A stretch of DNA of 64,000 nt from Xestospongia bergquistia. Taxonomy: Eukaryota > Porifera > Demospongiae > Haplosclerida > Petrosiidae. The notes beneath the pieces were generated by a model. The model saw only the letters and a program-made list of their open reading frames with translations. It was not told where the DNA came from and did no database searches. The position numbers and the translations under genes are program-made. Location of the stretch: positions 1,612,001-1,676,000 of the forward strand of contig OZ014419.1 in assembly GCA_963965975.1 (NCBI GenBank), read 5' to 3'. Positions 11,701 to 40,592 of the stretch are shown here, piece after piece (positions within the stretch are counted from its first letter, which is position 1; each line of letters opens with the position of its first letter).

Positions 11701-13407
11701 ACATTAGAATCTGTGGACACTCCTACTATTGTCATTACATCTTCTTTCACCTTTGCTTCTTCTGTCTTATCTGAAATATCAAGTATTGACATTGCACCTT
11801 CATCCACAGAACCACAATTTAGCAGTGATGAGTTAATTTCATCATCATTTGATTTCTTTTCTGATTTTTCTGAGCTCACTATTAAGACTACAATGGAAAC
11901 ATTATTTGCTCTTGACTCTTCCATTGATGGCCCTAGTCTAGCTCTTTCAAGTTCCTTCATTAGCTCTTCAAGTGAGAGTTCTAGTCCCTCACCTTCTTTT
12001 ACGGAGATCTCATCATTCTTTGACGAAAGTACTTTGTCCTTGTTATTCACTGAAACCCCTTCAACTTCCATTAGTGAAAGTCTACTTTTCTCTCTATTTG
12101 TAAGTCCTAGTAGAGATTTCAGTTCCTTTGAGAGCTCTAAATTTTCAAGCAGCAGATTTATAACTAGTGTAAGTGTAATCAGTGATTCTATTTTCTTTTC
12201 TGAAACTGTAAGCCCTTTTGACAGTTTTTCTTCATTGCTTACTGTATCAATTTCAATGACACAGACTTCTTCATCTCTTCCATCTCCATCTCCTAAAACA
12301 GATGTAGGACCAATCTTAATCAACCCACTTGGTACTTTAGTAGCTATACAAGGCAAATTGTTTAGTTACACCATTCCTGACAATACATTCTTGAATGCTG
12401 TTTCGTTAGACCTTCTTGATGATACTACTGAACAATCACTTCATAACAGTCCATGGGTTCAATTGAAATCTAATGTTATTCAAGGCTTAGCAATGTCAAG
12501 TGAAATTATTAATGGAGATATTACTGATCATTATTTCAAATTACAAGCTCAAGGGGAGAATGGCACCAGTGCTTCACAAATTATTTGTATACGAGTTTTT
12601 CCAGATAATCTTCTACCAAACAACAATTTTGTTCGAATATCTGTTGAAGGAGACTTTTTGATGTTTGACCAAAATTTGTCAGCAAAAATAGACCTTTCAT
12701 CCAAATTAGCTGCTCCTACATCTGATGACATTTACTTTCTAGGATTCAGCAATGGGAGTATAGTGGTAACATACACTAATATCTCCATACGTGACTACGA
12801 TTGTGCTGAATTCACTAATTGGTTCCAGACAATTTATACTAATAATAACTACACAGTATCATTTAGAAACAAAGTAGTTCCTTTTGTGCCTTTAGGAGTA
12901 GCAAAGATAATTGGTACATGTGGCATCCGTACTAGTGCTGATGTATTTACAACCTTAACTACCACAGGAGGAATCCAAGAAATCTCAGACAAGTTGATAT
13001 TTTTAGTAATGGTACTACCAATAATTTTTGTAGCCTGTCTTTTGCTGATGATAGGCACAATTGTTTTCATAATGTATAGAAGAAAGAGATGGGAAAGGAG
13101 TCATGTCCCATCAAGAGAACTGTATCTTAACCGACAACCTGTTATCCTACCTGGTGAGTTAGAAGGAGTTCCATATCGATCAAGAAAGCCCACCATTCTT
13201 ACTGATGAATTACCAAGAAGAACTAGACAAGGCTATCGGTCATTTTTATATCCTCCATCATATGATCCAGGAGATCCTTTTGGTGAGGATGATAACGTGT
13301 CAATGGAATCTGAGAATGGATTGACTGATTTTCCAATAGTAACAATAAGTGAACCATTGAAAGAGTCTCCTCCTCCACCCTATAGATTACCCCCTGAAAT
13401 TAATTAG
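8715..13407 (+). CDS. DAG1: Dystroglycan-like protein with giant Ser/Thr region
   Basis: Two coding exons, 8715-9143 and 9253-13407, give about 1527 residues. In order: a hydrophobic signal segment near residue 65-88; a cadherin-like domain (PKWLSFDSSSWTFYGVP); an S6-like region with paired Cys; a furin-type site KRLRRQ (9967-9984); about 750 Ser/Thr-rich mucin-like residues (much longer than the vertebrate mucin region of about 170); a second cadherin-like domain (from about 12300); the DAG1 domain with NGSIVVTYTN and two Cys; a transmembrane helix (12990-13075); and a 105-residue tail ending in PPPPYRLPP, a WW-binding PPxY motif as in beta-dystroglycan. Dystroglycan links extracellular matrix to dystrophin. 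The open frame continues 30 bp upstream of the chosen ATG without another ATG, so a 5' exon could add residues. Confidence 0.88.
11244..11420 (+). repeat. 75-bp tandem repeat inside the dystroglycan mucin region
   Basis: Two apparently identical 75-bp (25-codon) units, 11244-11318 and 11319-11393, are followed by a partial third. Each encodes SSDFDDSLVPTSSEP plus RLISSMEMQ. The frame is kept, so copy number could change without breaking the protein. Confidence 0.9.
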
Positions 13408-14075: not shown

Positions 14076-16226
14076 ATGGAACAACAGTCTTCTACAAACA
14101 GTTCTTCTGTAAACTTTGATAGAAAGAACTCACAAAACAAAAGCTTCAGATTGGCCACATCTGATAGATATCAAAGGGAAGAGAAAGAGGAGGAGAGAGT
14201 GTTCAACAATATAGCAATAGAAAGTATTGGTGTCAATTTTTATGAGGATCAAGTCACATCACTCCAGATCAAGACAACAATGATGAGATTGGTGAAGTGG
14301 ACATTGAGTTTGATCAAGGTAATTTTGTCTGTTCATCAAATGATTCATTATTATCATGACAGATTATGTAAATGATCATGAAACTATTGAAAGTGGAAAA
14401 ACAATCATATATCGGTTGTCATCTCCTCGCTTATTACAAAGTTCAGTCAAGGTAAAATTCTATAAAAAATATATTTGATGTAGGGTTGAGTAAAGCTGGC
14501 TACTGCAGAGTATTTAGTGTTTACTTACCATCTTTTCTTTACAGGAAAAGGTAGTTCCTCAACAACTTGTCTCCAATGAAAGGTATTGCTAATTGTATTC
14601 AATTAATCCTTTGTATATGCACAAAAGTATGATTATAAATTGCTCCTATTTTATAGGGATAATCAACAAGATGGTTCTACATTGCCTCCTATAGTAAGAA
14701 AGAGAGCTGCTAAAGTTCTCAAAGAGGTCTTATCATCAAAAAAAGGATTTGATGATGAATCAAATGAAAAGGAATCTGATAACAAGAAAACTTCTGCAAA
14801 GCAAAAATGCAAGCAATACTGTTGCTCTCCCGAACAAACATTCCTAAGATGTCCGCATTTCTTGGAGCCACCGAAAATGTCACCTGATCTTGCACATGCT
14901 CGAAGAATTAGCATGAAAATGGCTATTAAAATGATGCATCCAGCTCTCCCTAAATTTATTTTAAATTTATGGGTATTGATAGAGCTGTTTTTGACTTACT
15001 TTCAGTTTACATTATCTTTGCTTACCATTGAGTTCTCAACCCGTCAAATTTATAAGGGACTTTCTATCAGTTTAGCTGGTATCAATGTAATTCTGGCAAC
15101 CATTGATGGATTTCTGAATTTTTATTCATATTGCAAGGGTTGTTATCAAAAGATGAAAGGGACAGAGAAAGAAGAGAAAGAAAAATCAGAAAAAGAACAA
15201 AACATGTCTAAATTTTCTAAATTGAAAAAATTCTTAAATACATGGTTTGAAATCATTCGTACTGTCTTAAGTGAGCTTTTGATCTATCCTCTTGTTGTAC
15301 TTAGCCTATATGAGTTGATGGGTGGTGGTACATTTCGTCCAACTACAAAATCAGATAAATTAAATTTTAGTCTGTTCATTGTCAGCAGTTTCTTTTTTGT
15401 TGTATCTGTTTATGTGATACGAATTGTTATGACTGTATCTACAATGCTCAGATTCAAGAGGCTTTCATCGGCTAACAATGATAATCAAAACTCCAACGAT
15501 ATTATCTTGTGGTTTTTTGTTCATCTTATTGGACAAATAATTGTGCATTTTTTATGCATAATGGCAATGGGCATCAAAATGTGGCAGGAAAGAGAGATCT
15601 TTAGAAACAATCGCATAGAAGAAGCCAGTCCTTTTTTCTGGTTAGTGATATTTGGTGGGTGGTTCATTCCTTTATTGGGAATTTTAGCTTTTTTTGTTAC
15701 CAATTTTTATTGGCTCCATGAGTTTTCAATCGGTGTCTTTCTTAACATGATGACTATGGTTGGAAATGAAAAACGAAAGTTGAAGCTTTTTCAGGAAAAA
15801 GTCAAAAAAGAGTTTAAGGAAAGGAGAACAAAGACCAATCTGATTGCTAAACTGCTCTATCCACTTAAGGTGCCCGTATTTCTATTATTTATGATTTTAT
15901 ATTATGCTATCTTGTTAACCTTTTGTGCTAGCTTGCTTTTGGCTGTTGACAATGGCCAAGTCACTGTTGCATCCATTCATGATAGCACAGGAGTGGCCAT
16001 ACTAATTACAATTGTATTGCTTTTACTTGGCAATGCTCATCTTCTCATGATTAGCAATCTCTGGACATTTGTATGCCTTTTGTTTGTAGTGCTGTTAATT
16101 CTACTCCCTCCCCTCTTGCTTCTTTGTCTGCCTATATTACTTTTTGTGATTGTAGTGAAATGCAGGAAGTCAGACAGTGCTCATGATCATACCGGAAGTG
16201 CTATAAACTTAGAACAGTTGCTATAA
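14076..16226 (+). pseudogene. Multi-pass membrane family, unit 1 (frameshifted exon 1)
   Basis: The exon structure matches units 2 and 3: 14076-14318, 14363-14451, 14545-14582 and 14657-16226. Exon 1 has one base fewer than its paralogues in a T run near 14236-14241. The frame that starts at MEQQSS is shifted there, and after splicing it meets TAA in exon 2. Exon 4 is fully open (over 520 codons, about nine helices, 92-95 percent similar to the others by eye), which argues for a recent lesion, an alternative start (for example the Met in LEPPKMS), or a base-call error in the T run. Its N-terminal cytosolic part (KKGFDDESNEKESD) differs from units 2 and 3. I call it a possible pseudogene. Confidence 0.6.
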
Positions 16227-17265
16227 TAATTATTAATGTTAATTAATTATCATAATCATTGTTGAGTTATAATGTGTGAATCTTTTTTATTGCTATACTC
16301 TTATAAATTGCTTTATTATTTTCGTGATGAATCAGCAAATAGTAGTAGATCTAGAAACAAATGTTCATGACTAGAGTTGATGCTCTCTACTGTCTGCTAG
16401 CAAGATATGATTACATACTCATGGTTATAGCCACAGATGGTGAGGGCTTTACCACAATTCCCTTCCCACAAATCACAGGTCAAGAATAACAAGTGGATAA
16501 ATTAAAAGTTCACTCAAAACAGTACAAACCACTTCAAACCATTGATTGAACAACTTGATCCATTTTGCTGGTAAGCAAAAACACGGACAACAACAACAAC
16601 ACAGTTGTGTCTTTGCAGTTCCTTCTTCATTGCCATTTTCATCATCATCATTATCGTCATCATCCAGATTTTGGCCTTTACACCACTTATAGCATAGTCG
16701 ACATGAGTCAAGCTCATAGTAGTACAAAAAAGCAACGATGCAAGCCAGCATGGTATTGGTAGTAGTAATGTAAACAGTATTGAACAATCTGTTAGATGTG
16801 AATTGGGTGTTGACCAGTGAAAACTCATATGGTACATAGTTTTATTTGCCTTCTATTGCCAAGGAAACAGAAATTGATTATATGTCATAATAATAATAAC
16901 ATTAATATTGTATTTATTTTGTTAAGATCAAAAAACAGGGTACATAAGATATTCCATTTGAGCACTAAACCAATACACTATTACAGTAAAGGTAAGACTG
17001 TGTATTATATTGTTACACCAAGCAAGGCTTCAGTTATGAGTGAGATTTTTTAATTCTTACAATCAAAAGGAAACTATATTCAATCACTATAAATATTTGC
17101 ATGACAATGGTACATAGTTCATTTTCCTTATATGGTAATTGAAATAAGGAAATAGTGTAATTGATTCTACTATACTGGTATTATCAAAACTACTATATAA
17201 TGTTACTTATTTGCTGTGGTCAGTGAAGTTGTGACAGCTAGGGCTGATCTATACTATTGTCATCA
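16227..17265. other. Spacer between tandem units 1 and 2
   Basis: It holds the 3' flank of unit 1, the inverted gene fragment at 16479-16823 and, from about 16826, the conserved upstream block of unit 2. No complete gene is seen. Confidence 0.6.
16479..16823 (-). pseudogene. Inverted fragment of the 23.5-26.2 kb family member (relic 1)
   Basis: About 345 bp matches 24416-24764 of the intact minus-strand gene almost base for base. It covers part of the second helix, the Cys cluster (CCCCCPCF) and the start of the third helix (VLSELLIYPL). It has no start, no upstream exons and no C-terminal helices. The upstream side is out of frame where an element near 16770 is missing relative to the intact gene. 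It is an internal slice of a gene, not a retrocopy end. Confidence 0.85.
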
Positions 17266-19404
17266 ATGGAACAACAGTCTTCTACAAAGAGTTCTTCTGT
17301 AAACTTTGATAGAAAGAAGTCACAAAACAAAAGCTTCAAATTGGCCACATCTGATGGATATCAAAGGGAAGACAAAAAAGAGGAGAGAGTGTCCAACAAT
17401 TTAGCAATAGAAAGTATTGGTGTCCATTTTTTAAGAGGATCAAGTCACATCACTCCAGATCAAGACAACAATTATGAGATTGGTGAAGTGGACATTGAGT
17501 TTGATCAAGGTAATTTTGTCTGTTCATCAAATGATTCATTATTATCATGACAGATTATGTAAATGATCATGAAACTATTGAAAGTGGAAAAACAATCATA
17601 TATCGGTTGTCATCTCCTCGCCTATCACAAAGTTCAGTCAAGGTAAAATTCTATAAAAAATATATTTGATGTAGGGCTGAGTAAAGCTGGCTACTGCAGA
17701 GTATTTAGTGTTTACTTACCATCTTTTCTTTACAGGAAAAGTCAGTTCCTCAACAACTTGTCTCCAATGAAAGGTATTGTTAATTGTGTTTAATTTATAT
17801 TCACAAAAGTATGATTATAGATTACTTCTATTTATAGGGATAATCAACAAGATGGTTCTACATTGCCTCCTATAGTAAGAAAGAGAGCTGCTAGGGTTCT
17901 CAAAGAGGTCTTATCATCAGAGAAAATGTTTGATGATGAATGGGAATTCAAACCCGATGATGAGACAACTTCTACAAAGAAAAAATGCAAGCAATACTGT
18001 TGTTCTCCCGAACAAACATTCCTAAGATGTCCGCATTTCTTGGAGCCACCGAAAATGTCACCTGATCTTGCACATGCTCGAAGAATTAGCATGAAAATGG
18101 CTATTAAATTGATGCATCCAGCTCTCCCTAAATTTATTTTAAATTTATGGATATTGATAGAGCTGTTTTTGACTTACTTTCAGTTCATATTATCTTTGCT
18201 TACCATTGAGTTCTCAACCCATCAAATTTATAATGGACTTTCTATCTGTTTAGCTGGTATCAATGTAATTCTGGCAACCATTGATGGATTTCTGAATTTT
18301 TATTCATATTGCAAGGGTTGTTATCAAAAGATGAAAGGTACAGAAAAAGAAGAGAAAGAAAAACCAGAAAAAGAAGAAAGCACGTCTAAATTTTCTAAAT
18401 TGAAAAAATTCTTAAATACATGGTTTGAAATTATTCGTACTGTCTTAAGTGAGCTTTTGATTTATCCTCTTGTTGTACTTAGCCTATATGAGTTGATGGG
18501 TGGTGGTACATTTCGTCCAACTACAAAATCAGATAAATTAAATTTTAGTCTGTTCATTGTCAGCAGTTTCTTTTTTGTTGTATCTGTTTATGTGATACGA
18601 ATTGTTATGACTGTATCTACAATGCTCAGATTCAAGAGGCTTTCATCGGCTAACAATGATAATCAAAACTCCAATGATATTATCTTGTGGTTTTTTGTTC
18701 ATCTTATTCAACAAATTATTGTGCATTTTTTATGCATAATGGCAGTGGGCATCAAAATGTGGCAGGAAAGAGAGATCTTTAGAAACGATCGCATAGATGA
18801 AGCCAGTCCTTTTTTCTGGTTAGTGATATTTGGTGGTTGGTTCATTCCTTTATTGGGAATTTTAGCTTTCTTTGTTACCAATTTTTATTGGCTCCATGAG
18901 TTTTCAATTGGTGTCTTTTTTAACATGATGACTATGGTTGGAAATGAAAAACAAAAGTTGAAGCTTTTTCAGGAAAAAGTCAAAAAAGAGTTTAAGGAAA
19001 GGAGAACAAAGACCAATCTGATTGCTAAACTGCTCTATCCACTTAAGGTGCCCGTATTTCTATTATTTATGATTTTATATTATGCTATCTTGTTAACCTT
19101 TTGTGCTAGCTTGCTTTTGGCTGTTGACAATGGCCAAGTCACTGTTGCATCCATTCATGATAGCACAGGAGTAGTCATACTAATTACAATTGTATTGCTT
19201 TTACTTGGCAATGCTCATATTGTCATGATTAGCAATCTCTGGACATTTGTATGCCTTTTGTTTGTAGTGCTGTTAATTCTACTCCCTCCCCTCTTGCTGC
19301 TTTGTCTGCCTATATTACTTTTTGTGATTGTAATGAAATGCAGGAAGTCAGACAGTGCTTATGATCATACCGGAAGTGCTATAAACTTAGAACAGTTGCT
19401 ATAA
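17266..19404 (+). CDS. Multi-pass membrane protein, tandem unit 2
   Basis: Exons 17266-17509, 17554-17642, 17736-17773 and 17838-19404 join in frame for 645 residues. Three short exons encode a Ser-rich, charged cytosolic N-terminus (MEQQSSTKSSS, VDIEFDQ, RLSSPRLSQSS). The last exon holds KCKQYCC, the family motif CPHFLEPPKMS and about nine hydrophobic helices, with a Lys/Glu-rich loop after helix 2. Other family motifs are ELLIYPLVVL, GGW(F/V)IP, NFYWLHEFSIG and LLYPLKVPVF. Intron phases are 1, 0, 2. I recognise no named family: it could be a channel, transporter or receptor, and no catalytic motif is visible. The position of the helix-poor N-terminus suggests it is cytosolic. Confidence 0.85.
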
Positions 19405-20469
19405 TAATTATTAATGTTAACTAATTATCATAATCATTGTTTACGAGCATATTTTATTGTTGAGTTATAATGTGTGAATCTTTTTTATTGCTATACTCTT
19501 ATAAATTGCTTTATTATTTTTGTGATGAATCAGCAAGTAGTAGTAAATCTAGAAACAAATGTTCATGACTAGAGTTGATGCTCTCTACTGTCTGCTAGCA
19601 AGATATGATTACATACTCATGGTATAGCCACAGATGGTAAGGGCTTTACCACAATTCCCTTCCCACAAATCACAGATCAAGAATAACAAGTGGATAAATT
19701 AAAAGTTCACTCAAAACAGTACAAACCACTTCAAACCATTGATTGAACAACTTGATCCATTTTGCTGGTAAGCAAAAACACGGACAACAACAACAACACA
19801 GTTGTGTCTTTGCAGTTCCTTCTTCATTGCCATTTTCATCATCATCATTATTGTCATCATCCAGACTTTGGCCTTTTACACCACTTATAGCATAGTCGAC
19901 ATGAGCCAAGTTCATAGTATTACAAAAAAGCATCGATGCAAGCCAGCATGGTATTGGTAGTAGCTAACATAATGTAAACAGTATTGAACAATCTGTTAGA
20001 TGTGAATTGGGTGTTGACCAGTGAAAACTCATATGGTACATAGTTTTATTTGCCTTCTATTGCCAAGGAAACAGAAATTGATTTTATGTCATAATAATAA
20101 TAACATTAATATTGTATTTATTTTGTTAAGATCAAAAAACAGGGTACATAAGATAATCCATTTGAGCACTAAACCAATACACTATTACAGTAAAGGTAAG
20201 ACTGTGTATTATATTGTTACACCAAGCAAGGCTTCAGTTATGAGTGAGATTTTTTAATTCTTACAATAAAAAGGAAACTATATTCAATCACTATAAATAT
20301 TTGCATGACAATGGTACATAGTTCATTTTCCTTCTATGGTAATTGAAATAAGGAAATAGTGTAATTGATTCTACTATACTGGTATTATAAAAACTACTAT
20401 ATAATATTACTTATTTGTTGTGGTCAGTGAAGTTGTCACAGCTAGGGCTGACCTATACTATTGTCATCA
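19405..20469. other. Spacer between tandem units 2 and 3
   Basis: It has the same make-up as the unit 1/2 spacer: 3' flank, an inverted gene fragment at 19675-20027, then the shared upstream block of unit 3. No complete gene is seen. Confidence 0.6.
19675..20027 (-). pseudogene. Inverted fragment of the 23.5-26.2 kb family member (relic 2)
   Basis: This is the same slice as relic 1, duplicated with the tandem unit. An extra T in ggccttttacacc (near 19874) shifts the frame next to the LCYKWCKGQ position, and the upstream part is out of frame. It is non-functional as a protein. Confidence 0.85.
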
Positions 20470-22608
20470 ATGGAACAACAGTCTTCTACAAAGAGTTCTT
20501 CTGTAAACTTTGATAGAAAGAAGTCACAAAACAAAAGCTTCAAATTGGCCACATCTGATGGATATCAAAGGGAAGACAAAAAAGAGGAGAGAGTGTCCAA
20601 TAATTTAGCAATAGAAAGTATTGGTGTCCATTTTTTAAGAGGATCAAGTCACATCACCCCAGATCAAGACAACAATTATGAGATTGGTGAAGTGGACATT
20701 GAGTTTGATCAAGGTAATTTTGTCTGTTCATCAAATGATTCATTATTATCATGACAGATTATGTAAATGATCATGAAACCATTGAACATGGAAAAACAAT
20801 CATATATCGGTTGTCATCTCCTCGCTTATCACAAAGTTCAGTCAAGGTAAAGTTCTATAAAAAATATATTTGATGTAAGGTTGAGTAAAGCTGGCCTCTA
20901 CAGAGTATTTAGTGTTTACTTACCATCTTTTCTTTACAGGAAAAGGTAGTTCCTCAACAACTTGTCTCCAATGAAAGGTATTGTTAATTGTGTTCAATTT
21001 ATATTCACAAAAGTATGATTATAGATTACTTCTATTTATAGGGATAATCAACAAGATGGTTCTACATTGCCTCCTATAGTAAGAAAGAGAGCTGCTAGGG
21101 TTCTCAAAGAGGTCTTATCATCAGAGAAAATGTTTGATGATGAATGGGAATTCAAACCCGATGATGAGACAACTTCTACAAAGAAAAAATGCAAGCAATA
21201 CTGTTGCTCTCCCGAACAAACATTCCTAAGATGTCCGCATTTCTTGGAGCCACCGAAAATGTCACCTGATCTTGCACATGCTCGAAGAATTAGCATGAAA
21301 ATGGCTATTAAATTGATGCATCCAGCTCTCCCTAAATTTATTTTAAATTTATGGATATTGATAGAGCTGTTTTTGACTTACTTTCAGTTCATATTATCTT
21401 TGCTTACCATTGAGTTCTCAACCCATCAAATTTATAATGGACTTTCTATCTGTTTAGCTGGTATCAATGTAATTCTGGCAACCATTGATGGATTTCTGAA
21501 TTTTTATTCATATTGCAAGGGTTGTTATCAAAAGATGAAAGGGACGGAAAAAGAAGAGAAAGAAAAACCAGAAAAAGAAGAAAGCACGTCTAAATTTTCT
21601 AAATTGAAAAAATTCTTAAATACATGGTTTGAAATCATTCGTACAGTCTTAAGTGAGCTTTTGATTTATCCTCTTGTTGTACTTAGCCTATATGAGTTGA
21701 TGGATGGTGGTACATTTCGTCCAACTACAAAATCAGATAAATTAAATTTTAGTCTGTTCATTGTCAGCAGTTTCTTTTTTGTTGTATCTGTTTATGTGAT
21801 ACGAATTGTTATGACTGTATCTACAATGCTCAGATTCAAGAGGCTTTCATCGGCTAACAATGATAATCAAAACTCCAACGATATTATCTTGTGGTTTTTT
21901 GTTCATCTTATTCAACAAATTATTGTGCATTTTTTATGCATAATGGCAGTGGGCATCAAAATGTGGCAGGAAAGAGAGATCTTTAGAAACGATCGCATAG
22001 ACGAAGCCAGTCCTTTTTTCTGGTTAGTGATATTTGGTGGGTGGGTCATTCCTTTATTGGGAATTTTAGCTTTTTTTGTTACCAATTTTTATTGGCTCCA
22101 TGAGTTTTCAATTGGTGTCTTTTTTAACATGATGACTATGGTTGGAAATGAAAAACAAAAGTTGAAGCTTTTTCAGGAAAAAGTCAAAAAAGAGTTTAAG
22201 GAAAGGAGAACAAAGACCAATCTGATTGCTAAACTGCTCTATCCACTTAAGGTGCCCGTATTTCTATTATTTATGATTTTATATTATGCTATCTTGTTAA
22301 CCTTTTGTGCTAGCTTGCTTTTGGCTGTTGACAATGGCCAAGTCACTGTTGCATCCATTCATGATAGCACAGGAGTAGCCATACTAATTACAATTGTATT
22401 ACTTTTACTTGGCAATGCTCATATTGTCATGATTAGCAATCTCTGGACGTTTGTATGCCTTTTGTTTGTAGTGCTGTTAATTCTACTCCCTCCCCTCTTG
22501 CTTCTTTGTCTGCCTATATTACTTTTTGTGATTGTAGTGAAATGCAGGAAGTCAGACAGTGCTCATGATCATACCGGAAGTGCTATAAACTTAGAACAGT
22601 TGCTATAA
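20470..22608 (+). CDS. Multi-pass membrane protein, tandem unit 3
   Basis: Exons 20470-20713, 20758-20846, 20940-20977 and 21042-22608 match unit 2 base for base in length and phase, giving 645 residues. Only five residues differ from unit 2 in the last exon: Gly/Asp in LM(G/D)GGTF, Phe/Val in GGW(F/V)IP, Val/Ala in STGV, Met/Val and Tyr/His near the C-terminus. All splice sites are intact. Topology and motifs are as for unit 2. The near-identity of introns as well as exons points to recent duplication or gene conversion. Confidence 0.85.
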
Positions 22609-23471
22609 TAATTATTAATGTTAACTAATTATCATAATCATTGTTCACGAGCATTTTTTACTGTTGAGTTATAATGTGTGAATCTTTTTTATTGCTATAC
22701 TCTTATAACTTACTTTATTATTTTCATGATGAATCAACAAGTAGTAGTCGATTTAGAAACTAATGTTCATGACTAGATCAGAGTTGATGCTTTCAAATGT
22801 CTGTTAACAATATATGATTACATACTCATGGTATAGACATAGATGGTAAGAGTTTCACTGCCACTCCCTTCCCACAAAATTTACTGTCTTAAACAGCAAT
22901 TACAGAAACTTACTTTAATATATTTCTGAGATACTCCAGGCCATACTATACATAACATTGTCCAACAATATTTTTGTTATAATACTTAAAAGGATATAAA
23001 CAACATTACATCTAGAAGAGATCAACATTATTTATTGTTCAAATCTAATAGAAGATGTAGTACTACAAGCAATTAGAAATGTCTTGAGTGGTTTTTTAAT
23101 GCATTTTGTTGGTAACGTAGTTAACCACATTAGACAAATATGAGTAATTATGTTAAACAGTTTATAAAATATGGCTGCCCTCGGTGTGTTCATAACAACA
23201 ACAGCTGGCTGCATTAGACAATCATGAATATAACGTGGTTCCTAGAAAATGCTTTTATGGTTGCCCTTGGTTAATAGTACATACATATATTGAATGTGAT
23301 AATAATAAATGCTAATATTATATAATAAATAACCTACTAACAGACATATCAATTTCACAAAGACCTTATACAAGTTTTTATTAAGAATACACACAACCAA
23401 TCAAAATGTAGTTTAAAAAGTTTGGACGTATTCAATTAAGTTCAATGTTCTTGATGTTCTTTATAATAATA
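22609..23471. other. Intergenic between unit 3 and the inverted member
   Basis: About the first 270 bp still match the 3' flank of units 1 and 2, then the match stops near 22880 where those units carry the inverted fragments. The remainder is AT-rich, with the 3' UTR of the minus-strand gene near 23400-23471. No gene is seen. Confidence 0.6.
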
Positions 23472-26166
23472 TTACGGAATCAATTGATCATCACGAGGTC
23501 TACCAGATTTTTTTATTAAAGCAATCAAATCTATCACAATAAAAACTGGAGAGAATAACATCAATATAAAACTTATGACTGTGACGACAACCAGCCACAG
23601 ATTGATTATAAGGATGACGTGAATGTTACTGATGATGAGAAACGCAATTGTAACAAGTGTTGTGATTCCGGCTCCTGTATTCATTGTAATCAATGTGACA
23701 TTACCATTATCATCATAGTCAAGTAATAAACTGGTAATAAATCCTCCCATCACAAAGTTATAAAACACAGCAAACATCATCATCAAAGGGACTTTGAGAG
23801 GATAGACGATCTTGGCTACAAAATTTGTATTTTCATTTCTAATTTTTGCTTCTTTTTTGACATCACGATAGTGAACATCCTCAAGCAATTTCTCTGATTT
23901 CTCACGTGCGTTAGATGAAACACCTTTACCCTGGAACACCGCTTCAGCAAAATCTGGTTCTTCCAATAGTCCAATCATATCAATGAAAAATCCAAGAGAA
24001 AATTGTTGTAGCCAATAGTAGTTCACCACAAAGAAAGAAACTACACCCATAAATGGAATGATCCAGCCACCAATCATTACGGCCCAAAGGAAAGGTGTAG
24101 CAATGTAGGTTCCTCCATTGATTGATTTATCTTCCTGCCATATTTTGAGACCCACAGCAATGACACAGAGTAGATGGACAAAGATCTGTATTAACACATG
24201 TAAGAAAAAACGAACAAATACTCTAGTGTAACTGCTATCATTAGTAGTTATTGAGGTTAGCCCACCAAGACTACGAATGGCACTTATAGTCATCACACTC
24301 CTTCCAATATAGACTGATAGAACAAGATAGAAACTGCCAACGATAAATAAACAAAAGCTAACTCTACTTTGTTCATTGGTTGGGTGAAAAGTACCTCCAC
24401 CCAAGAGCTCAAACAGATCAAGAATAATGAGTGGATAAATTAAAAGTTCACTCAAAACAGAACGAACCACTTCAAACCATTGATTAAACAACTTGATCCA
24501 TTTTGCTGGTAAGCGAAAACACGGACAACAACAACACAGTGGTGTCTTTGCAGTTCCTTCTTCGTTGTCATTTTCATCATCATCATTATCGTCATCATCC
24601 AAACTTTGGCCTTTACACCACTTATAGCATAGTCGACATGAGCCAAGCTCATAGTAGTACAAAAAAGCATCGATGCAAGCCAGCATGGTATTGGTAGTAG
24701 CTAAAATAATGTAAGCACTATTAAACAATCTGTTAGATGTGAATTGGGTGTTGACCAGTGAAAATAGTAATTGAAAGAGTGTTACAAACAACTCTATAAA
24801 CACCCATATATCGCTCAAAAGCCTTGGCAAACCTGGCATGAGAAATTTTCGTGACATTAGTGATCCAATATTCGATCCTTCTTTTAGATTTTCTGACATT
24901 TGAGGTGGCTGTAAAATAGCAGGATATTTTATGAAGCTTAAATTGACATCAAAAAAGCTTTGAACAATCTTCTTGCTTGTTGGCATTTTAGATTGATCCT
25001 CGTCACCAATTGGACTATATCCATTGGTATCTTTCTTTGTCTTGTTAATTTGCTTGACCATACTTTTGAGAGCATTGATAGTTCTCTTTCTCACTGAAGG
25101 AGACATTGATTGGTAACTAAAGGATTAAAAAATATAGACATTGCGGATATTCTACTACCATACATGAAAAATGATATTGTGGTTCATGTAAGTTATTAGT
25201 CAAATTAGCCAGCTACAAATTGGTGGGTAATTACTATGGTTTTCCTCTTCTTGGAATCACCAGAAGTTGATTGTCGATTTTTATCAGTGTATAATGTATA
25301 TAGTTGTTATACATAATACAATTAAAAGAACATACACTTGATAACTAATTGATGTGTGGGGGTTTAAATAGTTATACATCATGTAATTAACATAACATAT
25401 ACTCTATAGCTAATTGATGTGTGGATGTATTACTATTATAAATCACAAAATACCTGTTGTTGGGAACCATTTGCATTTCTTCCACCTCATTAATCTACAT
25501 TGAAATAATATGAATAATAGCAAAGCAAACAATTTACTTACTAATGGTTTGTCTTCATATGGGTCATCATCATCATCATCCTGTATATTATTAAAATTGA
25601 AATAAAATCATTGAGTGTTAGCTTACTTTAAAGTAATCTTTTTCAAATTGTGCCTTTGGTATAACAAGTTCTTCATGATCAGATGGACTATCTTCTGGTG
25701 GTTGTGGAGGAGGTTCCTCCGATGGACTATCTTCTGGTGGTTGTGGCAGAGGTTCCTCCGATGGACTATCTTCTGGTGGTTGTGGCAGAGGTTCCTCCAA
25801 TGGACTATCTTCTGGTGGTTGTGGAGGAGGTTCTGACTGGCTTGGAGCCTCTGGTTGCACTGTAATAGTTGGTGGCATTGACTTTCTTCTATACTCAGGC
25901 TCTGGTTGATCACGAGACACTGCAGGACCAAGTGACTGAGCCTCTGGTCGCACTGTAAGAGTGGGTGACATTGACTTTCTTCTAGGTTCTGGTTGATCAC
26001 GAGGTTCAGTGGGAGTGGGTGTCAGTGTTCTTCTTCTAGTTGGCCTTGTTAGGACAATAGTTTTGCCTGTTTTACCATCACTTGATTCATCTTTTGTAAA
26101 TAAATAAACATAATATATATATATATATAGTAATAATAATAACTTACCTTTTCCTGGAAAAGACAT
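23472..26166 (-). CDS. Multi-pass membrane family, inverted member with Pro-rich repeat N-terminus
   Basis: Five exons join in frame: 26166-26148, 26090-25627, 25580-25542, 25494-25454 and 25116-23472, for 735 residues. The first 170 residues are unlike other members: a Thr/Pro/Arg region (RRRTLTPTPTEPRDQPEP), two RRKSM motifs that look like basophilic kinase sites, then four 13-residue PPQPPEDSP-type repeats and an acidic run of Asp. The last exon begins MSPSVRKRTINALKS and encodes the family core: KYPAILQPPQMS, about nine helices, an Asp/Glu-rich loop and a Cys cluster (LCCCCPCF) before the amphipathic KWIKLFNQWFEV. The Cys cluster could be palmitoylated (inference). Intron phases 1, 0, 0, 2 equal those of the other members. 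Confidence 0.85.
25690..25845 (-). repeat. 39-bp coding tandem repeat (four copies)
   Basis: Four copies of a 39-bp unit encode PPQPPEDSP(S/L)EE-type 13-mers in exon 2 of the inverted family member. The plus-strand reading of the same repeat gives spurious Trp-rich open frames. Confidence 0.9.
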
Positions 26167-27370
26167 TTTAATTTTATCATTTATGATATCGACTTTTGTT
26201 AAAACTATGCAGGAGTGCAGTACCTGCTACCTAGACTAAGGGCAGGTTCATCAGTAAATGTGGTTATTTATGTAGTTTCGATTATAATTAACTTATTATA
26301 CATTTCCTGTCCTGGTTATAATTAAGCTGTATAACTGCACAGAAATGGAGACTCCAAGTTATGTAATCACAGAGAGTATTAATAATATATAATATTATTA
26401 TTATTATTATTATTAATTCATGTGTTATATATAATTGCTGTTCAAATTGAGTGAGGTTCAGGCAGTGCTTATTAATTCATCTTGCAAGGAGTCCATAGTT
26501 TAGCTCAGTGGTATGCTGTTTAATGATATAGCAGAGTTAACTGATAAACCAGTACTGATAACAATACACATATTATTTATTACAATGTTAAATTTATAGT
26601 ATTTATTGAGATCTGTTGATGCCATACTCTTTAACAATGAACATACTTTCAAGACTATATTGTCATAATTTCCATGCATGTATTGCTAGCTTAACTCTGC
26701 AAAATTCAGTACTAGTCAGTATTAATAAATAAATACATACATATATATATTCGCACATACACACACACACATATACATCTTATATAATAAGCGTTTATAT
26801 TTATTTACAAGATATAATATGCTATATCATCATTATACTATACTATATTACAATTCAAGAGAACACTATTTTCTAAGTAAACAAATTATACAATGAGTAA
26901 TTCACATAAATTCTAGATTCTATATATGTAATGTACCCATGTAAGCTACAAATTAACTGTTACTATAACTGAACATTGTTATGAGGATCATGATATTCTT
27001 TTCTTTTCTGCTTGTTGCATGAGATTAGAAGTATATGTATACCAATATGACATAGATCAAATCTAATATTCACACAAGCATTTGTTCCAGCTAGGAGAGT
27101 GTTCATAGTTAAAAGAAATAGTAGATGGTCTACATACTGAGAGTCATCCATTATACAATTACATCATTAATGAGACTATGCCGTCACTGTCATATAGTAA
27201 CACTAGCTACACTGAGCTTAATTAAATTTACACTAGAACTAAACATGTTTGTTAACATAGTAATGTAACCCATAGTTACTTCAGTTGTGGTTTATACTCA
27301 CCTTTTATTCATTTATACTAAGCTTTTATTCTAAGTTATCAGTGGCAGACATAACAGTACAAGCAGTATC
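26167..27370. other. Divergent intergenic region, 1.2 kb
   Basis: This region separates two divergent family members. It contains a TTA run (26394-26415), CA/TA dinucleotide tracts near 26745-26775, and a dispersed repeat (26880-26925) whose second copy is near 47826. Both promoters presumably lie here, but no defined site is visible. Confidence 0.5.
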
Positions 27371-29771
27371 ATGTCTACCTGGATCTCTCAAGATGATGAC
27401 AAGAAGGACACTGGTTTTGTACTGCACTTCACTACAACAGATGATCATGAAGATGATAAGAATTTAGAGCAGAATCCTGAAAGTGAAGAGTATGAAACAG
27501 GAGAAGTTATATCACAGATGAGCTTACATCTATTATCAATGACTCATCAGACATTTGTAAATGTTGTTCAGTTTGATCAAGGTCAGTTGTCTTTATCAAA
27601 TATTTATACTAAACATATAATTATATATTATAATAATATGTATACACAAATAGAAGATATAAAAGAAGACATTCAAGTGAAACGTGGAAAAACTCTTGTG
27701 TTTCGTAAGCCAAGATCAAAATCTCACCGTCGCCTGCAACCAGAGGTAATATGTCTATTCTCACTTCCAAATCATCCATTTGTTTTATTAAGAGTTCTGA
27801 ACTTGAAGAAGATACAGTACAGCTGGTAAGACCTTACCATACTAGTACAATGCTATATGTCTATTATTTACTATATTCTATTTTAGATCAATGAAATTGA
27901 TGATATCTCAAATGAAAGCAGGTATGTCGGTGTGTCACAGTTTGTAGTATGATTATTTTCTAATTTCAAAAGCTTACATTAAACTGGCAAATTATTTGCT
28001 CTAGTTACTTTAAATAAACAGAAATACCAAAGTTTGTTTGCATAGCAACCACAAATTACATTATTCCTCGAAATATGGCACTTATATATTAGGTTGCGTG
28101 AACTATTGATTTGTAGTATGTTTGTAGGACTTCAACCACTAGCTTTGTCTGTTATACTACAATTCCAGGAAATATGTTGAAACATGCACTTTATACACAA
28201 ATATAGTTACAACATAATTTTTTAATTTCTTATATAGTTATGAGCCCAAGCCTGTAGCCAAACAAGACAGGGTTACATCAACTCTTCAAGAATTGGCTAA
28301 ACATATAGACACTCCTACAAAGAAGAGTTGTTTGGAGAAAACTATTGAAGTTATTTCAGATCCTGAGTCATGTCCAATTAAATGTCCGGCTATTTTGGAA
28401 CCTCCAAAATTATCTGATACTCTTCGTCGTGGAAAGCATTTGGGTTGTTTCATGTCTCGTTTCTTTCTTCTCCCAGTCATGCCTAGGATTGTTGGAGATA
28501 TTTGGTTTTTAGTAGAGCTTCTAATAGCATTGATATTATTCATTTTATCCTTGATCAATATCCAATATATATCTAATAGGGTATTTATTGGTCTCACTAT
28601 TACAACAACAGCTATTATATCAATTCTGACTTGTGTCGATGCTGTTTTGTACTTCTATGAACTTCGTTCATGTAAGCTGTGCTATCAATTCTATAAAGGT
28701 CAAAATATGAGTCATGATATTGAAAAAAAGGTGTTATGTTTTTGTTGTCCATGTATACCAACAAAATTGGTTAAGCTATTCAATAGATGGTATGAGATCA
28801 TTCGTACTATATTAACTGAATGTTTGATGTATCCACTTCTTGTTGTTTGTCTCTTTGAGCTCCTCAATAATGGTTCATTTCATTATAAAGGACATAACAC
28901 AATCACCTTCAGTATCTTTGTCATTGCTTGTTTCTACATTGTTATGTCAGTCTATATTGTACGACCAATGATGGCTACAATAACTGTTGTTCGACTTCAA
29001 AGACTAACCTCAACAACCACTAATGATAGCAGTTATACTAGAGTATTTCTTGTGTTTCTCTTACATGTGTTAGCACAGATCTTTGTCCATCTACTGTGTG
29101 TCATTGTTGTGGGTCTCAAAATATGGCAGGAACAATCAACGAATGGAGGAACCTATAATGCTACAGCTTTCCTTTGGGTCGTAATGATTGGTGGCTGGAT
29201 CATTCCATTTATGGGTGTAGTTTCTTTCTTTGTGGTGAACTACTACTGGCTACAACAATTTTCTCTTGGATTTTTTGTCGATATGATTGGACTATTGGAA
29301 GAACCATATTTTGCTGAAGCAGTACTCCAGGGTAAAGGTGTTTCATATAGTGAGCAAGAAAAATCAAAGAACTTGCTTGAGGATGTTTGCTATCATGATG
29401 TCAAAAAAGAAGCTAAAATTAGAAATGAAAGAACCAATTTTGTAGCCAAAATCATCTATCCTCTCAAAGTCCCTTTGATGATAATGTTTGCTGTGTTTTA
29501 TAACTTTGTGATGGGAGGATTTATTACAAGTTTATTACTTGACTATGATGATAATGGTAATGTCACATTGATTACAATGAATACAGGAGCTGGAATTACA
29601 ACACTTGTTACGATTGTGTTTCTCATCATCAGTAACATTCATGTCATCCTTATAATCAATCTGTGGCTGATTTCCATGATCGTCACGTCTTTTCTATTGA
29701 TGTTGTGTTCTCCAGTTCTTGCTGTGATAGGGGTGGTTATTATCATTAAAAAATGCACACATCATACATAA
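27371..29771 (+). CDS. Multi-pass membrane family, member A of second group
   Basis: Exons 27371-27581, 27654-27745, 27793-27825 (a 33-bp microexon), 27887-27921 and 28238-29771 join in frame for 634 residues. The N-terminus is acidic (TTDDHEDDKN, SEEYETGEVIS) and contains VVQFDQ, the same exon 1 ending (phase 1) as IEFDQ in the tandem units. The last exon carries CPAILEPPKLS, about nine helices, a Cys cluster (VLCFCCPC) and the motifs GGWIIPFMG, NYYWLQQFSLG and IYPLKVPLM, ending KKCTHHT. Function and family name are unknown. Plus-strand orientation is shared with the next two members. Confidence 0.85.
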
Positions 29772-29930
29772 TTGATACACCAAACTGACAGTCAAATATT
29801 GTTTTATTTACTATATAGATCTAGTAGATTTAGTATATAGATGTTGAGGAATTTTAAGAACAATATAATTATTAATTTTAATAATAGAAGTTAATATTAA
29901 GTAACATGTTACTTCCGGGTGCTCTCAGGT

Positions 29931-30947
29931 ATGTCTGCTCTTGATGATGATGATAACAAAGAAGATGTTGGTTTTGTACTGCACTTCACTACAACAGATG
30001 ATCATGAAGATGACAAGAGTCTAGACGAGATTCCTGAAGATGAAGAAGAGCATGAAACAGGAGAAGTTATATCACAGAAGAGCTTGCATCTATTATCAAT
30101 GACTCATCAGACATTTGTAAATGTTGTTCAGTTTGATCAGGGTCAGTCAAGTTGCCTCGATCAAACATTATTAGTTAATCTATATTTATACACTCATGAT
30201 CAATATGTGTAGTTTTTATTGTATGTAATGATATATACACAATATATAGAGGATACAAAAGAGAAAGATGATCAAGAAAAACGTGGGAAAACTCTTGTGT
30301 TTCGTAAACAAAGATCACAATCTCGTGGTCGTCTCCAACCAGAAGTAAGTTTATAATCACTTCCAACTTGTGTTTTTATTTTTATAAAGAATTCTGAACT
30401 TGAAGATGATACAGTACACACTAATATGTTTTATTTACTATATTATATTTTTAGATTAATGAAATTGAAAACATATCAAGAGAAACCAGGTTTGTCACAA
30501 TAAATAATTTTATTTTAATTTTTAACGTGTTTATTTTCTCAAGCAAAGCATTTGTTTTTGCTGGCCAGTTTGACAAATACCTAAGTGTATAAGCATAGTA
30601 ACTATAAGTTAGGCCATTCCTTGAATTTGACACTTTTATGTATTCTATTGATGAAAAGCTTCTAACAAATAGTGTTAAACTTCATCTGGTAACCATAGTG
30701 ACTATCGGCCATATCCTTACTTACACATGCACTTTACAAACTTAATATAATTATCATACTCTTCCTGTGCAGTTATACACAAAATCAAGTTTCTTCAATT
30801 CTTCATAAAGTTGACAAACCCTCAAAGAAAACTCATTTACAAAAGGCTGTTAAAGTTATTTCAGACTGTGAATTATGTCCTCTATTCCTGGTTCTTGTTG
30901 TGATAGGTGTGGTTCTTGTTATAAGAAAGTACAAACATCATACATAA
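29931..30947 (+). CDS. Truncated family member: N-terminus fused to last helix
   Basis: Exons 29931-30141, 30250-30344, 30455-30489 and 30773-30947 join in frame for 171 residues. All N-terminal exons match the neighbouring members. In the last exon the sequence jumps from ISDCELCP (the position of CPIKCPAIL) straight to LFLVLVVIGVVLVIRKYKHHT, the final helix and tail. About 1.35 kb coding for eight helices is missing, yet the frame is kept to the stop. The 33-bp microexon is still recognisable (30392-30420), but its donor agctggtaag has become acacactaat; skipping it preserves frame. The result would be a small single-pass protein. It could be a functional derivative or a decaying copy. Confidence 0.65.
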
Positions 30948-32267
30948 CTGACTCTGTAATCAAACTAATTAAATATTTTAATAATTGTTTTAAATTTTTT
31001 TGTTGTATGTATTACTTTTGTTTCTACAAACATCTTTGTAATTTTTTGACGGGAAGTTTATAGAGTACATAATTTGATTACACTGTTCACGTTGAGAGTA
31101 ACCATTAACTCAGTAACTAACACTCTATATATATATTGGTATATATATATTGGTATATATATATTGGTATATATATTGGTATATATATATTGGTATGTAT
31201 ATATTGGTATATATATTGGTATATATATATTGGTATGTATATATTGGTATATATATTGGTATATATATTGGTATATATATACTGGTATATATATATTGGT
31301 ATATATATATTGGTATATATATTGGTATATATATATTGGTATATATATTGGTATATATATTGGTATATATATATTGGTATATATATATTGGTATATACAT
31401 TGGTATATATATTGGTATATATATTGGTATATATATTGGTATATATATATTGGTATATATATATTGGTATATATATATTGGTATATATATTGGTTCCAAC
31501 ACATATATGTCTACTTGTTATAATCATCAACATCATTAGATGGCTTTTGTGTTCATTCACACGTGTGTATTAAATGAAAGCTAGTGTTCTCAGAAAATGG
31601 TTTATTCATATTGATATAGGAGTCTTTAGTAGTATGAGGATTTTTTAAGAGTTTCTCTCGTTCCTTTAGCACTTACTATATATTGTACAACAACACTAGC
31701 TGTTTATGATCACTTCAAAAATGAAGTATGATCAGTTAACGGATTACAAAATGGAGTGTGTTGTCAATTCAAAAACATGCATAATCATACTCCATGATTT
31801 ATTATTTCCCTGTGACACTTATTTCCAGATTGTTGAAATTATATATTAATATTTTATAACTTATATTAACAGGAATGATGTTCATAAAATATATTATTAT
31901 AAGAGTAAATCAATTTACATAATGAAAATCATCCATAATTTTTTTTTAATTGGCACTATGTATCAAGCAATAGGGTCATTCTAGATATAGTATTGTAATA
32001 AGTTTCTTTGTGACTCAACCAACAAATTATACATAGAGCTTGTATAGAGAGTGAGATACAAGGATAAACAGACAGTTATAGACTAATTGACTAGAACATA
32101 ACAATGTGAGTACAATATAGTCAGTCAATTTTCTTAAGGGCTACACTATAGTTATTAAGTGACATCAGAGAATCTTTAATAATGTATTTTAGTTATGATT
32201 CAGTTGTGGTTTATGTCCAGGGATAGTATATTTCAGAGAGTTTGTAGATACAATTTGTGTCAGGATT
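30948..32267. other. Intergenic with TATATATTGG satellite
   Basis: It contains the satellite array at 31124-31495 and AT-rich sequence. Two direct words, atcacttcaaaaatga and caattcaaaaacatgca, lie near 31710-31780. No gene is supported. Confidence 0.6.
31124..31495. repeat. ATATATATTGGT minisatellite (about 370 bp)
   Basis: About 27 tandem copies of a 12-14 bp unit, ttggtatatata(ta), occur with occasional tgt or tac variants. The unit length lets all six frames stay open, which yields repetitive YIYWY or NIYIPIYI-type frames on both strands; these are artefacts of the repeat. Confidence 0.95.
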
Positions 32268-34648
32268 ATGTCTGGTCTTAATGATGACAAGAAGGGTGAT
32301 GGTTTTGTACTGCATTTTACTTCAACAGATGATCATGAAGAAGACAACCTGAGTAGTCCTGAAGATGAAGAAGAGCATGAAACAGGAGAAGTTATATCAC
32401 AGAAGAGCTTGCATCTATTATCAATGACTCATCAGACATTTGTAAATGTTGTTCAGTTTGATCAGGGTCAGTCAAGTTGCCTCGATCAAACATTATTAGT
32501 TAATCTATATTTATACACTCATGATCAATATGTGTAGTTTTTATTGTATGTAATGATATATACACAATATATAGAGGATACAAAAGAGAAAGATGATCAA
32601 GAAAAACGTGGGAAAACTCTTGTGTTTCGTAAACAAAGATCACAATCTCGTGGTCGTCTCCAACCAGAGGTAAGTCTCTAGTGACTTCTAATGAAAACTA
32701 GCTTATATTCTTATTTTTATAAAGGATTCTGAACTTGGAGATGATACAGTACAGCTGGTAAGACCTTAGTATGCTAGTTCACAATATTATTATATTATGT
32801 TATATTTTAGATCAATCAAATTGATGATATCTCAAATGAAACCAGGTAAATCAATTTGTAGTGTATTTTTCTTTTTAAAAGCTTGCATTAAAGTAAATAA
32901 AGCATTTGTCTCAGTTTGTCTTTAATAATCAAATACATGAAACAGGTCTCCTTGCATAGCAACTGTTGAAATTTGTCATTTGTAAGTATTCTGGTAGTAA
33001 AATGCGTTTATAAGGCTTTTACTAAGAATTAATTAATTTTAATTAGTCTGGTAACCATAGTAACCATCTACTCTAAGAAATATTATGAACCATGAACTCT
33101 ATACATATATAGCATCCCTTTGTTATTTATAGCTATGAACAAAACCGAGTTACATCAACTCTTCAAGAATTGACTAAACATATAAACAATCTCACAAAGA
33201 AGAGTTGTTTGGAGAAAACTATTGAAGTTATTTCAGATCCTGAGTCATGTCCAATTAAATGTCCAGCTATTTTGGAACCTCCAAAATTATCTGATACTCT
33301 TCGTCGTGGAAAGCATTTGGGTTGTTTCATGTCTCGTTTCTTTCTTCTCCCAGTCATGCCTAGGATTGTTGGAGATATTTGGTTTTTAGTAGAGCTTCTA
33401 ATAGCATTGATATTATTCATTTTATCCTTGATCAATATCCAATATATATCTAATAGGGTATTTATTGGTCTCACTATTACAACAACAGCTATTATATCAA
33501 TTCTGACTTGTGTCGATGCTGTTTTGTACTTCTATGAACTTCGTTCATGTAAGCTGTGCTATCAATTCTATAAAGGTCAAAATATGAGTCATGATATTGA
33601 AAAAAAGGTGTTATGTTTTTGTTGTCCATGTATACCAACAAAATTGGTTAAGCTATTCAATAGATGGTATGAGATCATTCGTACTATATTAACTGAATGT
33701 TTGATGTATCCACTTCTTGTTGTTTGTCTCTTTGAGCTCCTCAATAATGGTTCTTTTTATTATAAAGGACATAACACAATCACCTTCAGTATCTTTGTCA
33801 TTGCTTGTTTCTACATTGTTATGTCAGTCTATATTGTACGACCAATGATGGCTACAATAACTGTTGTTCGACTTCAAAGACTAACCTCAACAACCACTAA
33901 TGATAGCAGTTATACTAGAGTATTTCTTGTGTTTCTCTTACATGTGTTAGCACAGATCTTTGTCCATCTACTGTGTGTCATTGTTGTGGGTCTCAAAATA
34001 TGGCAGGAACAATCAACGAATGGAGAAACCTATAATGCTACACCTTTCCTTTGGGTCGTAATGATTGGTGGCTGGATCATTCCATTTATGGGTGTAGTTT
34101 CTTTCTTTGTGATGAACTACTACTGGCTACAACAGTTTTCTCTTGGATTTTTTGTCGATATGATTGGACTATTGGAAGAACCAAATTTTGCTGAAGCAGT
34201 ACTCCAGGGCAAAGGTGTTTCATATAGTGGGCAAGAAAAATCAAAGAACTTGCTTGAGGATGTTTGCTATCATGATGTCAAAAAAGAGGCTAAAATTAGA
34301 AATGAAAGAACCAATTTTGTAGCCAAAATCATCTATCCTCTCAAAGTCCCTTTGATGATAATGTTTGCTGTGTTTTATAACTTTGTGATGGGAGGATTTA
34401 TTACAAGTTTATTACTTGACTATGATGATAATGGTAATGTCACATTGATTACACTGAATACAGAAGCTGGAATTACAACACTTGTTACAATTGCGTTTCT
34501 CATCATCAGTAACATTCACGTCATCCTTATAATCAATCTGTGGCTGATTTCCATGATCGTCACATCTTTTCTATTGATGTTGTGTTCTCCAGTTCTTGCT
34601 GTGATAGGCGTGGTTATTATCATAAAAAAATGCACACATCATACATAA
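32268..34648 (+). CDS. Multi-pass membrane family, member C of second group
   Basis: Exons 32268-32466, 32575-32669, 32725-32757 (33-bp microexon), 32811-32845 and 33133-34648 join in frame for 625 residues. The terminal exon is almost identical to member A (about ten residue differences by eye), and exons 1-2 are closest to the truncated member next door, so the locus looks mosaic. Topology, Cys cluster and motifs are as for member A. It ends KKCTHHT. A second, broken copy of the last helix follows the stop codon. Confidence 0.85.
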
Positions 34649-34674
34649 TTGACATACCAAACTGACAATAAGTG

Positions 34675-34756
34675 TTTTCTGTTAATAGTGTGTTCTCTGG
34701 TTCTTGCTGTGGTAGGTGTGGTTATTGTTGCAAGAAAATATGGACATTATAATTAA
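34675..34756 (+). pseudogene. Orphan last-helix fragment of the membrane family
   Basis: The codons from 34691 read CSLVLAVVGVVIVARKYGHYN then TAA. They align with CSPVLAVIGVVIIIKKCTHHT of members A and C. No upstream exon is attached, so this is the remnant of a further family copy just beyond member C. Confidence 0.7.
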
Positions 34757-39000: not shown

Positions 39001-40592
39001 GAGTGTAATAAAAACGCTATAAAATAAAGTTATCAATAAATTAAGTATATCATCATTCTCTTATAATATATTCAGTAAATCATATCTTAGGAATTAAGAA
39101 ATTATTATTAGGAGGAAGCATATTTAGTGTTACAACTACTTCCACTTTGTCAAGTCCTACAAATTTACATTATCACTCAATTTTCATTCATATAGTAGAT
39201 ATGTTTCATTTCCATCATTTGAGACTTCCTAATTTAATTAAAGTAGGTGTAATGAATTCAATAAAACTCAAACACTTACTTTACATGTATATTAGTATAT
39301 CATATTACATTATAATTGAAATAATTATGTCACATTACCCTTGGTGTAACAGCCAGCCCTGGATCCACATAAACATCTTTTGGACTTTCTCCCAACAAGA
39401 TTGGGAGTTGAGTCACCAAGATAGAAAACGCTGCAGCTGCTGTGTAGCCACTGATGAGAGCATCAGAAAGGAAGAGAGTGATCACTCCTAGTTTAATTAG
39501 ACTCATTGCAACCTATAATGAAGGGAGACAAAGTTAAGATGCAAGGGTTACAAAACAAATCACTACAAACATGAATACATTCATTGTCCTACTTACCATG
39601 AGAATACCAACCATAAAACTAATTGTTATAGCAATGTCAACGTGATATTGATAACAAGCTGGCAGTAAACAAGGGTCATCATTATCAAATAAAGTATTGT
39701 TATCAATATTTGAGCTATTATCAGAACAAGAGGGATAAGACATGGAGATTCGTTTCACTGCATCACCTGTCATCAAAGCTACCACTGGAAATGTACCTAA
39801 ATGACATCAGAGATTGATGACACATGGATATCTGTTTATATGGAGATATTGTTATCTAGCTCATGTTAAAACACCAGGCTTTAAATATTTTAATATTGTG
39901 ATAAGTGACTAAACAGTAGAACTACTAACTAAACATTATGTCATGTGACATGTTTGTTGATGTTGGAGATGCATAACATAGTATATTTATGTTAATACAT
40001 ACCAACTGATATATGTTTAGAAGTGCCAAACACTGCATATAAAAGAACAGGAGCAAATGATGAATACAGACCAAATACAGGTGGTACAAATGCTAGAAGA
40101 GCAAACCCAATACCTAGGAAAGAGAGAGGGAGGATGAAAAAAAGGGTGGGTCATCATCTGTTTACCTTGTGGAATATGTGTTACACCAATGGTCAGTCCT
40201 GATATGAAATCGCCAAGTAATAATTTAGGGGTATAATGCAGAACCCACTGAATTATTGGCAAATGAACAAACAGAAATTTCTTCCACTCTTTCTTTTTTA
40301 TTGGAGGTTTGAGAGCATTCCAAATTGGCTGAGGTACTACTCGATGCAAGTACCGATCCCTCATTGGGAGATCTTGATCCTCATCAAGTTCCCGATACAC
40401 AGGGACTCCCTCTACAGTTGTTAAAGCAACATCATCTAACTCTAAGCCAGTATTAGTGTTTGTAAGAGCATCGTCAGGATCATTTGTTGAAACTTTCGTT
40501 ATAGAAGGATGTTTACGAGAATTGAGAGGTTTCCTAAAGTCTTGTGCAACACTCCAACTATCATCAGAGAAACTATCTGACTCTTCCATCAT
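36057..40592 (-). CDS. SLC26-family anion (sulfate) transporter with STAS domain, 19 exons
   Basis: Exons read from 40592-40166, 40113-40003, 39796-39597, 39512-39339, 39016-38849, then about 38808-37651 in seven exons, then 37592-37434, 37098-37063, 37015-36856, 36790-36702, 36644-36477, 36260-36159 and 36113-36057. A cytosolic N-terminus is followed by the SLC26 signature ([27 protein letters not shown]), [18 protein letters not shown], further helices ([17 protein letters not shown]), and a C-terminal STAS domain ([32 protein letters not shown]) with an insertion of about 70 acidic residues. The C-terminus LETTL is a class I PDZ ligand. The family exchanges sulfate, chloride, bicarbonate or oxalate; the substrate is not decided by sequence. 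The middle exons were checked by phase. Confidence 0.9.
36352..36523. repeat. 86-bp tandem duplication at the last STAS exon
   Basis: The segments 36352-36437 and 36438-36523 are near-identical (a few changes around the donor). The upstream copy in transcript order carries the end of the STAS exon with donor GTG|gtcagt; the second copy lies in the following intron with gtcagc. Confidence 0.9.

Follow-up and report, generated by a model that had tools for sequence, protein, structure and literature searches.

The question raised by this locus is what role is played by a repeated set of multi-pass membrane protein genes that the earlier note had placed in no named family, and whether the variable N-terminal parts of these proteins (tails) evolve apart from the membrane core encoded by the last exon. 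The window, i.e. the whole stretch of 64,000 nucleotides analysed here, corresponds to C9:1612001-1676000, and the repeated family spans approximately 14.08-34.65 kb of it. Long last exons, delimited as stop-to-stop frames, lie on the plus strand at 14607-16226, 17821-19404, 21025-22608, 28218-29771 and 33113-34648, and a sixth lies on the minus strand at 23472-25124. When three of these six last exons were used as tblastn queries against the window (E ≤ 1e-3), the matches comprised the six cores and the short stretches 16476-16838, 19673-20027 and 30762-30881.

The first part of the cluster is an approximately 3.2-kb unit repeated head to tail, each copy carrying a gene of type A and the first two copies carrying an antisense piece of gene B as well. 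The predicted gene A1 (14076..16226, plus strand; exons 14076-14318, 14363-14451, 14545-14582 and 14657-16226) has an open last exon, while its exon 1 is one base shorter than in A2 and A3, so the modelled frame breaks there. The predicted genes A2 (17266..19404, plus strand; exons 17266-17509, 17554-17642, 17736-17773 and 17838-19404) and A3 (20470..22608, plus strand; exons 20470-20713, 20758-20846, 20940-20977 and 21042-22608) are fully open and code for 645 aa each. Both B fragments are on the minus strand and 85-92% identical to B: the one at 16476..16838 matches last-exon-frame residues 121-237 at 86%, and the second copy in the tandem unit, at 19673..20027, consists of two pieces (85% and 92%). 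Gene B itself (23472..26166, minus strand; exons 26148-26166, 25627-26090, 25542-25580, 25454-25494 and 23472-25116) is predicted to be a fully open gene for 735 aa, whose exon 25627-26090 is rich in Pro, Ser and Glu and includes a 39-bp tandem repeat.

Three C-type genes follow on the plus strand. Two are predicted to be fully open, namely C1 (27371..29771; exons 27371-27581, 27654-27745, 27887-27921 and 28238-29771; 623 aa) and C3 (32268..34648; exons 32268-32466, 32575-32669, 32811-32845 and 33133-34648; 614 aa). Between them lies C2 (29931..30947; exons 29931-30141, 30250-30344, 30455-30489 and 30773-30947; 171 aa, predicted), whose tail exons are open and whose last exon runs in frame from the linker into the last hydrophobic segment, the end and homology of that segment being judged by eye on the translation. 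C2 may be a remnant or a small functional protein. A tandem array of a 14-base unit, TATATATATATTGG, in 27.6 copies is located at 31126-31494, shortly downstream of C2.

The description of the cluster in the earlier note was thus largely right, with corrections to both its numbers. It had counted seven copies, of which six have full last-exon cores and the seventh, C2, has lost its core in frame, so the count becomes six cores and one core-less copy; out of the three fragments reported, two lie outside the gene models (E ≤ 1e-3) and the third, 30762-30881, is part of C2. Recent local duplication, also proposed there, is borne out by A2 and A3, which are identical at 99% of core residues, and local duplication of genes as such is ordinary. 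A single long last exon is common to all six cores, and the intron phase series 1-0-(0)-2 is found, with conserved GT-AG sites, as 1-0-2 in the A and C genes and as 1-0-0-2 in B, which has one additional phase-0 intron. Of the motifs listed for the core, GGW(F/V/I)IP, (F/Y)YWL and YPLKVP are present in six cores out of six; EPPK(M/L)S holds for the cores other than B, which has QPPQMS, and ELLIYPL for those other than C1 and C3, which have ECLMYPL.

The neighbourhood contains several other features. Upstream, at 9253-13404 (plus strand), there is a dystroglycan-like gene with a long Ser/Thr-rich stretch and a DAG1 domain (E 3.9e-7), its C-terminus being by eye of the PPPPY type. The segment 36450-36821 (minus strand) encodes a STAS domain (E 3.1e-9), and a frame at 40020-40649 (minus strand) without a Pfam match resembles by eye the start of a sulfate-transporter-like gene. 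Two tandem protein-kinase genes, at 43833-45899 and 50251-52086 (both minus strand), each possess N-terminal YVDNAYNRRLGRVGMPVGS-type repeats, and a 139-aa frame at 43120, with no Pfam match, recurs at 49535. Ankyrin repeats close to a Gly-rich stretch at 55021-56878 (minus strand) are by eye reminiscent of an NF-kB precursor.

The assembly to which the window belongs (146.5 Mb, 21 contigs) contains two further, divergent clusters at C7:2.961-3.045 Mb and C4:6.979-7.027 Mb. A core query from contig C9 led to relatives on contig C7, a C7 query led to relatives on contig C4, and additional queries from C9, C4 and C7 returned the same three loci, the genome-wide member counts being lower bounds. 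A tree was built from 14 cores (six from C9, six from C7 and two from C4), including two incomplete C7 rows (2961605, with the later core part only, and 2984415, without the end) and omitting broken pieces or remnants at C7 ~2.999 and ~3.043 Mb and C4 7.0265 Mb. A branch with support of 100/99-100 separates each cluster from the rest, with long branches flagged. The profiles of the three clusters recognise each other in hhalign with probabilities of 99.6% (C9-C7), 99.3% (C7-C4) and 96.3% (C9-C4), and by this comparison and the invariant residues described below, the three clusters read as one family.

Hydrophobic segments were predicted with the Kyte-Doolittle scale (window 19, threshold 1.5). 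The nine helices proposed before were recovered in all three C9 genes tested (A2, B and C1), and three C7/C4 members gave 8, 10 and 8 segments, with helix 3 falling below the threshold in both 8-segment members. The N-terminal part and loops 2-3 and 6-7 account for most of the Lys and Arg, so the N-terminus is probably inside; the charge of loop 4-5 is less clear, with 3-4 K/R in C9 members versus 4 for A2 in outer loop 5-6. A hairpin is possible for the last two segments, and the C-terminus could lie on either side. The loops read as outer have 5-50 residues in the six members tested. In two C7 members the helix 5-6 loop is longer and rich in Ser/Thr/Asn, with some 70-95 residues by eye, and in two of the three C7 pairs compared this loop ranks with the most variable stretches; among the C7 members L009-L011 and L034, some have a repeat-like Ser/Thr/Asn-rich version of it. 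A2 has 2 cysteines in loop 2-3, compared with 6-11 for B, C1 and the C7/C4 members, two members being counted with helix 3 included. The alignment of 11 members has 12 invariant columns, including E226 in helix 3, P357 and W371 in helix 6 and P442 preceding helix 7, and N500 in helix 8 is found in 90% or more of the aligned members. The helix-3 glutamate may be structural in role.

The absence of a named family agrees with the searches carried out in Pfam, NCBIfam and PDB. With 11 members searched against Pfam the best E value was 0.081 and the curated cut-off was passed by none; in NCBIfam the best value was 0.035, again with no member above the cut-off; PDB profile searches gave no credible match, the best (E 0.11 and 1.3) being weak and partial. 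Two consensus sequences compared with Pfam gave partial hits below the cut-off to OATP (E 0.0067) and to a tRNA nucleotidyltransferase domain (E 0.0079), both of which were taken as chance. Inner loop 6-7 weakly resembles one helix of VPS4B (E 1.3-1.6), in a region that is presumably the MIT domain, and the E value of 0.11 belongs to a weak match of the same loop to PDB chain 1wfd; both were set aside as likely reflecting a shared amphipathic helix. Pattern scans yielded 65, 0 and 6 matches in IMG/VR and 36 in GTDB genomes, zero of which were confirmed as relatives, and one query against plasmids found no relatives. Among the literature matches listed, no account of the C9/C7/C4 family was recognised from the titles and the openings of the abstracts.

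The suggestion that the tails evolve separately from the core is supported for C1, C2 and C3 and does not extend to A2/A3, to three C7 pairs or to one C4 pair. Between C1 and C3, synonymous differences amount to 9 at 303 sites in the core versus approximately 20 at 64 sites in the tail (Fisher p 1e-10 on rounded counts), and core versus linker gives p 0.02; in A1/A2 the linker has more synonymous change than the core (p 0.0045), and A2/A3 show no contrast between tail and core (p 0.52), all p values being uncorrected across the four comparisons. Along the DNA, identity between C1 and C3 is 95-100% per 100 bases throughout 28300-29699, while their flanks, 5′ exons and introns agree at 47-82% of aligned bases, with the exception of a 94% block at 27500, in exon 1. 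They share an identical run of 488 bases in the last exon, and a run of 312 identical bases is common to C2 and C3, extending from exon 1 via intron 1 to the penultimate base of exon 2. Runs of these lengths were obtained in 0 of 1000 shuffles each; the shuffles ignore coding constraint, so that they contribute little next to the synonymous counts and the intron. Given the likeness of the C1 and C3 cores with an older split of their tails, together with the C2/C3 tail run, C3 is a mosaic whose tail is C2-like and whose core is C1-like, the two being of separate recent ancestry, and gene conversion or a double exchange would be the simplest reading of it. The B and C genes have another common tract at approximately 24200-23600, with 84-98% identity per 100 aligned or nearly aligned bases versus 57-71% just upstream.

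A split between tail and core is no general rule of the family: in the three C7 pairs and the C4 pair it was not seen, and most of the variation falls in loops, inner or outer, or at the 3′ end. Exon 2 of the A, B and C genes has a common GKT(I/L)(I/V) stretch, and exon 1 of both A and C ends with FDQ in the same phase; the tails therefore resemble diverged forms of a single tail, counter to the idea of unrelated tails. A post hoc tail motif, K.?T[LIV][IV]...P[RKA], was discarded, being present in only three of eight tails (A2, C1 and one from C4).

With respect to selection, the cores of A2 and A3 (dN/dS 0.12; 11 synonymous and 5 other changes) and of C1 and C3 (0.28; 9 synonymous and 9 other changes) are under constraint, on few changes. 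Values are higher for the pairs with A1 (0.49 and 0.56) and for B versus C1 (0.45) and C3 (0.46); for A2/B they are 0.94 in the linker, 0.77 in the tail and 0.20 in the core, with dS saturated. Because A1 has a broken exon 1 and C2 lacks a core, part of the cluster may be decaying.

As to the role, we tentatively favour, at rather less than an even chance, a multi-pass family in three local clusters whose core handles a solute, ion or lipid and whose tail couples it to regulators or to a location. Judging from the anatomy of the proteins (about nine hydrophobic segments, short outer loops in most members, N-terminus probably inside), the substrate of the core within the membrane would be a small solute, an ion or a lipid, handled around the helix-3 glutamate and the helix-8 asparagine, and the variable cytosolic tail would couple the core to regulators or to a location; the most likely role would thus be to move or to sense an ion, a lipid or a small molecule. 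A somewhat unlikely reading is neutral birth and death of an ordinary membrane protein, with drift of a disordered tail and no special role for the cluster. The broken copies and fragments, the lower apparent constraint on tails and linker than on the core in A2/B, and the dN/dS values of the A1 pairs (0.49-0.56) would all fit it, but the low values of the A2/A3 and C1/C3 cores do not, nor does the retention of the exon 2 GKT stretch and of the splice phases across gene types. A family of chemosensory or other receptor-channels, in which tails set the signalling and copies diversify for ligand range, is plainly unlikely: local expansion in three clusters, the probable N-in topology, diverse tails and the variable helix 5-6 loop of two of three C7 pairs are in keeping with it, whereas the copy number is modest (at least 14 cores, as in the tree), the A2/A3 and C1/C3 cores are constrained rather than diversifying, and similarity to a receptor family is found nowhere in Pfam.

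More specific is the idea of a divergent branch of XK-related lipid scramblases (XKR), with buried charges in a multi-helix core and cytosolic tails regulating activity. By eye, there is a likeness to XKR in helix 3, where a proline follows the glutamate, and in the succession of aromatic and charged residues, and ordinary XKR genes are present in the same genome. Against a five-sequence XKR profile, however, hhalign gave 0.1% for C9, 1.8% for C7 and 0.9% for C4, versus 0.7%, 0.2% and 0.3% for the respective reversed-profile controls, so that the C7 and C4 profiles slightly exceed their controls; the best alignments are short and at non-corresponding helices, while the four positive controls reached 96.3-99.7% (XKR subsets mutually 99.7%, C9/C4 96.3%). 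PF09815 matched 0 of 11 members in the Pfam search at E ≤ 5, and its genome search at E ≤ 1 returned none of the three family loci. XKR membership was therefore left unsupported by a profile test with working positive controls, and we consider it highly improbable, although this result lowers membership only and leaves the broader idea of a lipid-handling core untouched. We give least credence of all to an assembly artefact inflating the repeat count, with A2 and A3 as two haplotypes placed in tandem. Over about 2.7 kb, noncoding DNA included, identity between the two is indeed 95-100% per 100 bases, but A1, A2 and A3 stand at nearly fixed spacing, with B fragments carried along, and all lie within one 7.5-Mb contig, and a search of the assembly with A2 found no second copy of the cluster among the best candidates listed.

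A bolder possibility, which we regard as improbable, is an undescribed animal transporter, channel or receptor fold in which conversion keeps the core uniform and tails are exchanged as modules. If that were true, one conserved pore or carrier would gain several regulatory inputs, and the core-less C2 could serve as a free, tail-bearing decoy. A new fold would mean an additional membrane protein family, and a diverged known one would mean a wider range for that family. A family unmatched in the libraries searched, with three clusters, invariant residues and a natural mosaic of tail and core, offers a ready design for telling which of the two parts determines function.

A close comparison for the favoured solute-, ion- or lipid-handling family is with the C7 and C4 clusters, which resemble C9 in core order and invariant residues. 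They differ in being 17-20% identical to B, their open frames keep tail and core together, and at the position of the C9 motif YPLKVP they have YPFK(S/R)(P/L) in C7 and (S/T)PFTNP in C4. Like XKR4, XKR8 and XK (PF09815), the family has a multi-helix core with a glutamate and then a proline. XKR proteins have cytosolic regulatory ends. Ahead of helix 7 the present family has a long, charged inner loop at a place where, by eye, an additional helix seems to be present in XKR. A general parallel is with tandem gene families that gene conversion homogenises; the cluster shares with them recent tandem copies, fragments and conversion-like tracts; it differs from them in that the last exon and the 5′ exons of C3 are of different recent ancestry.
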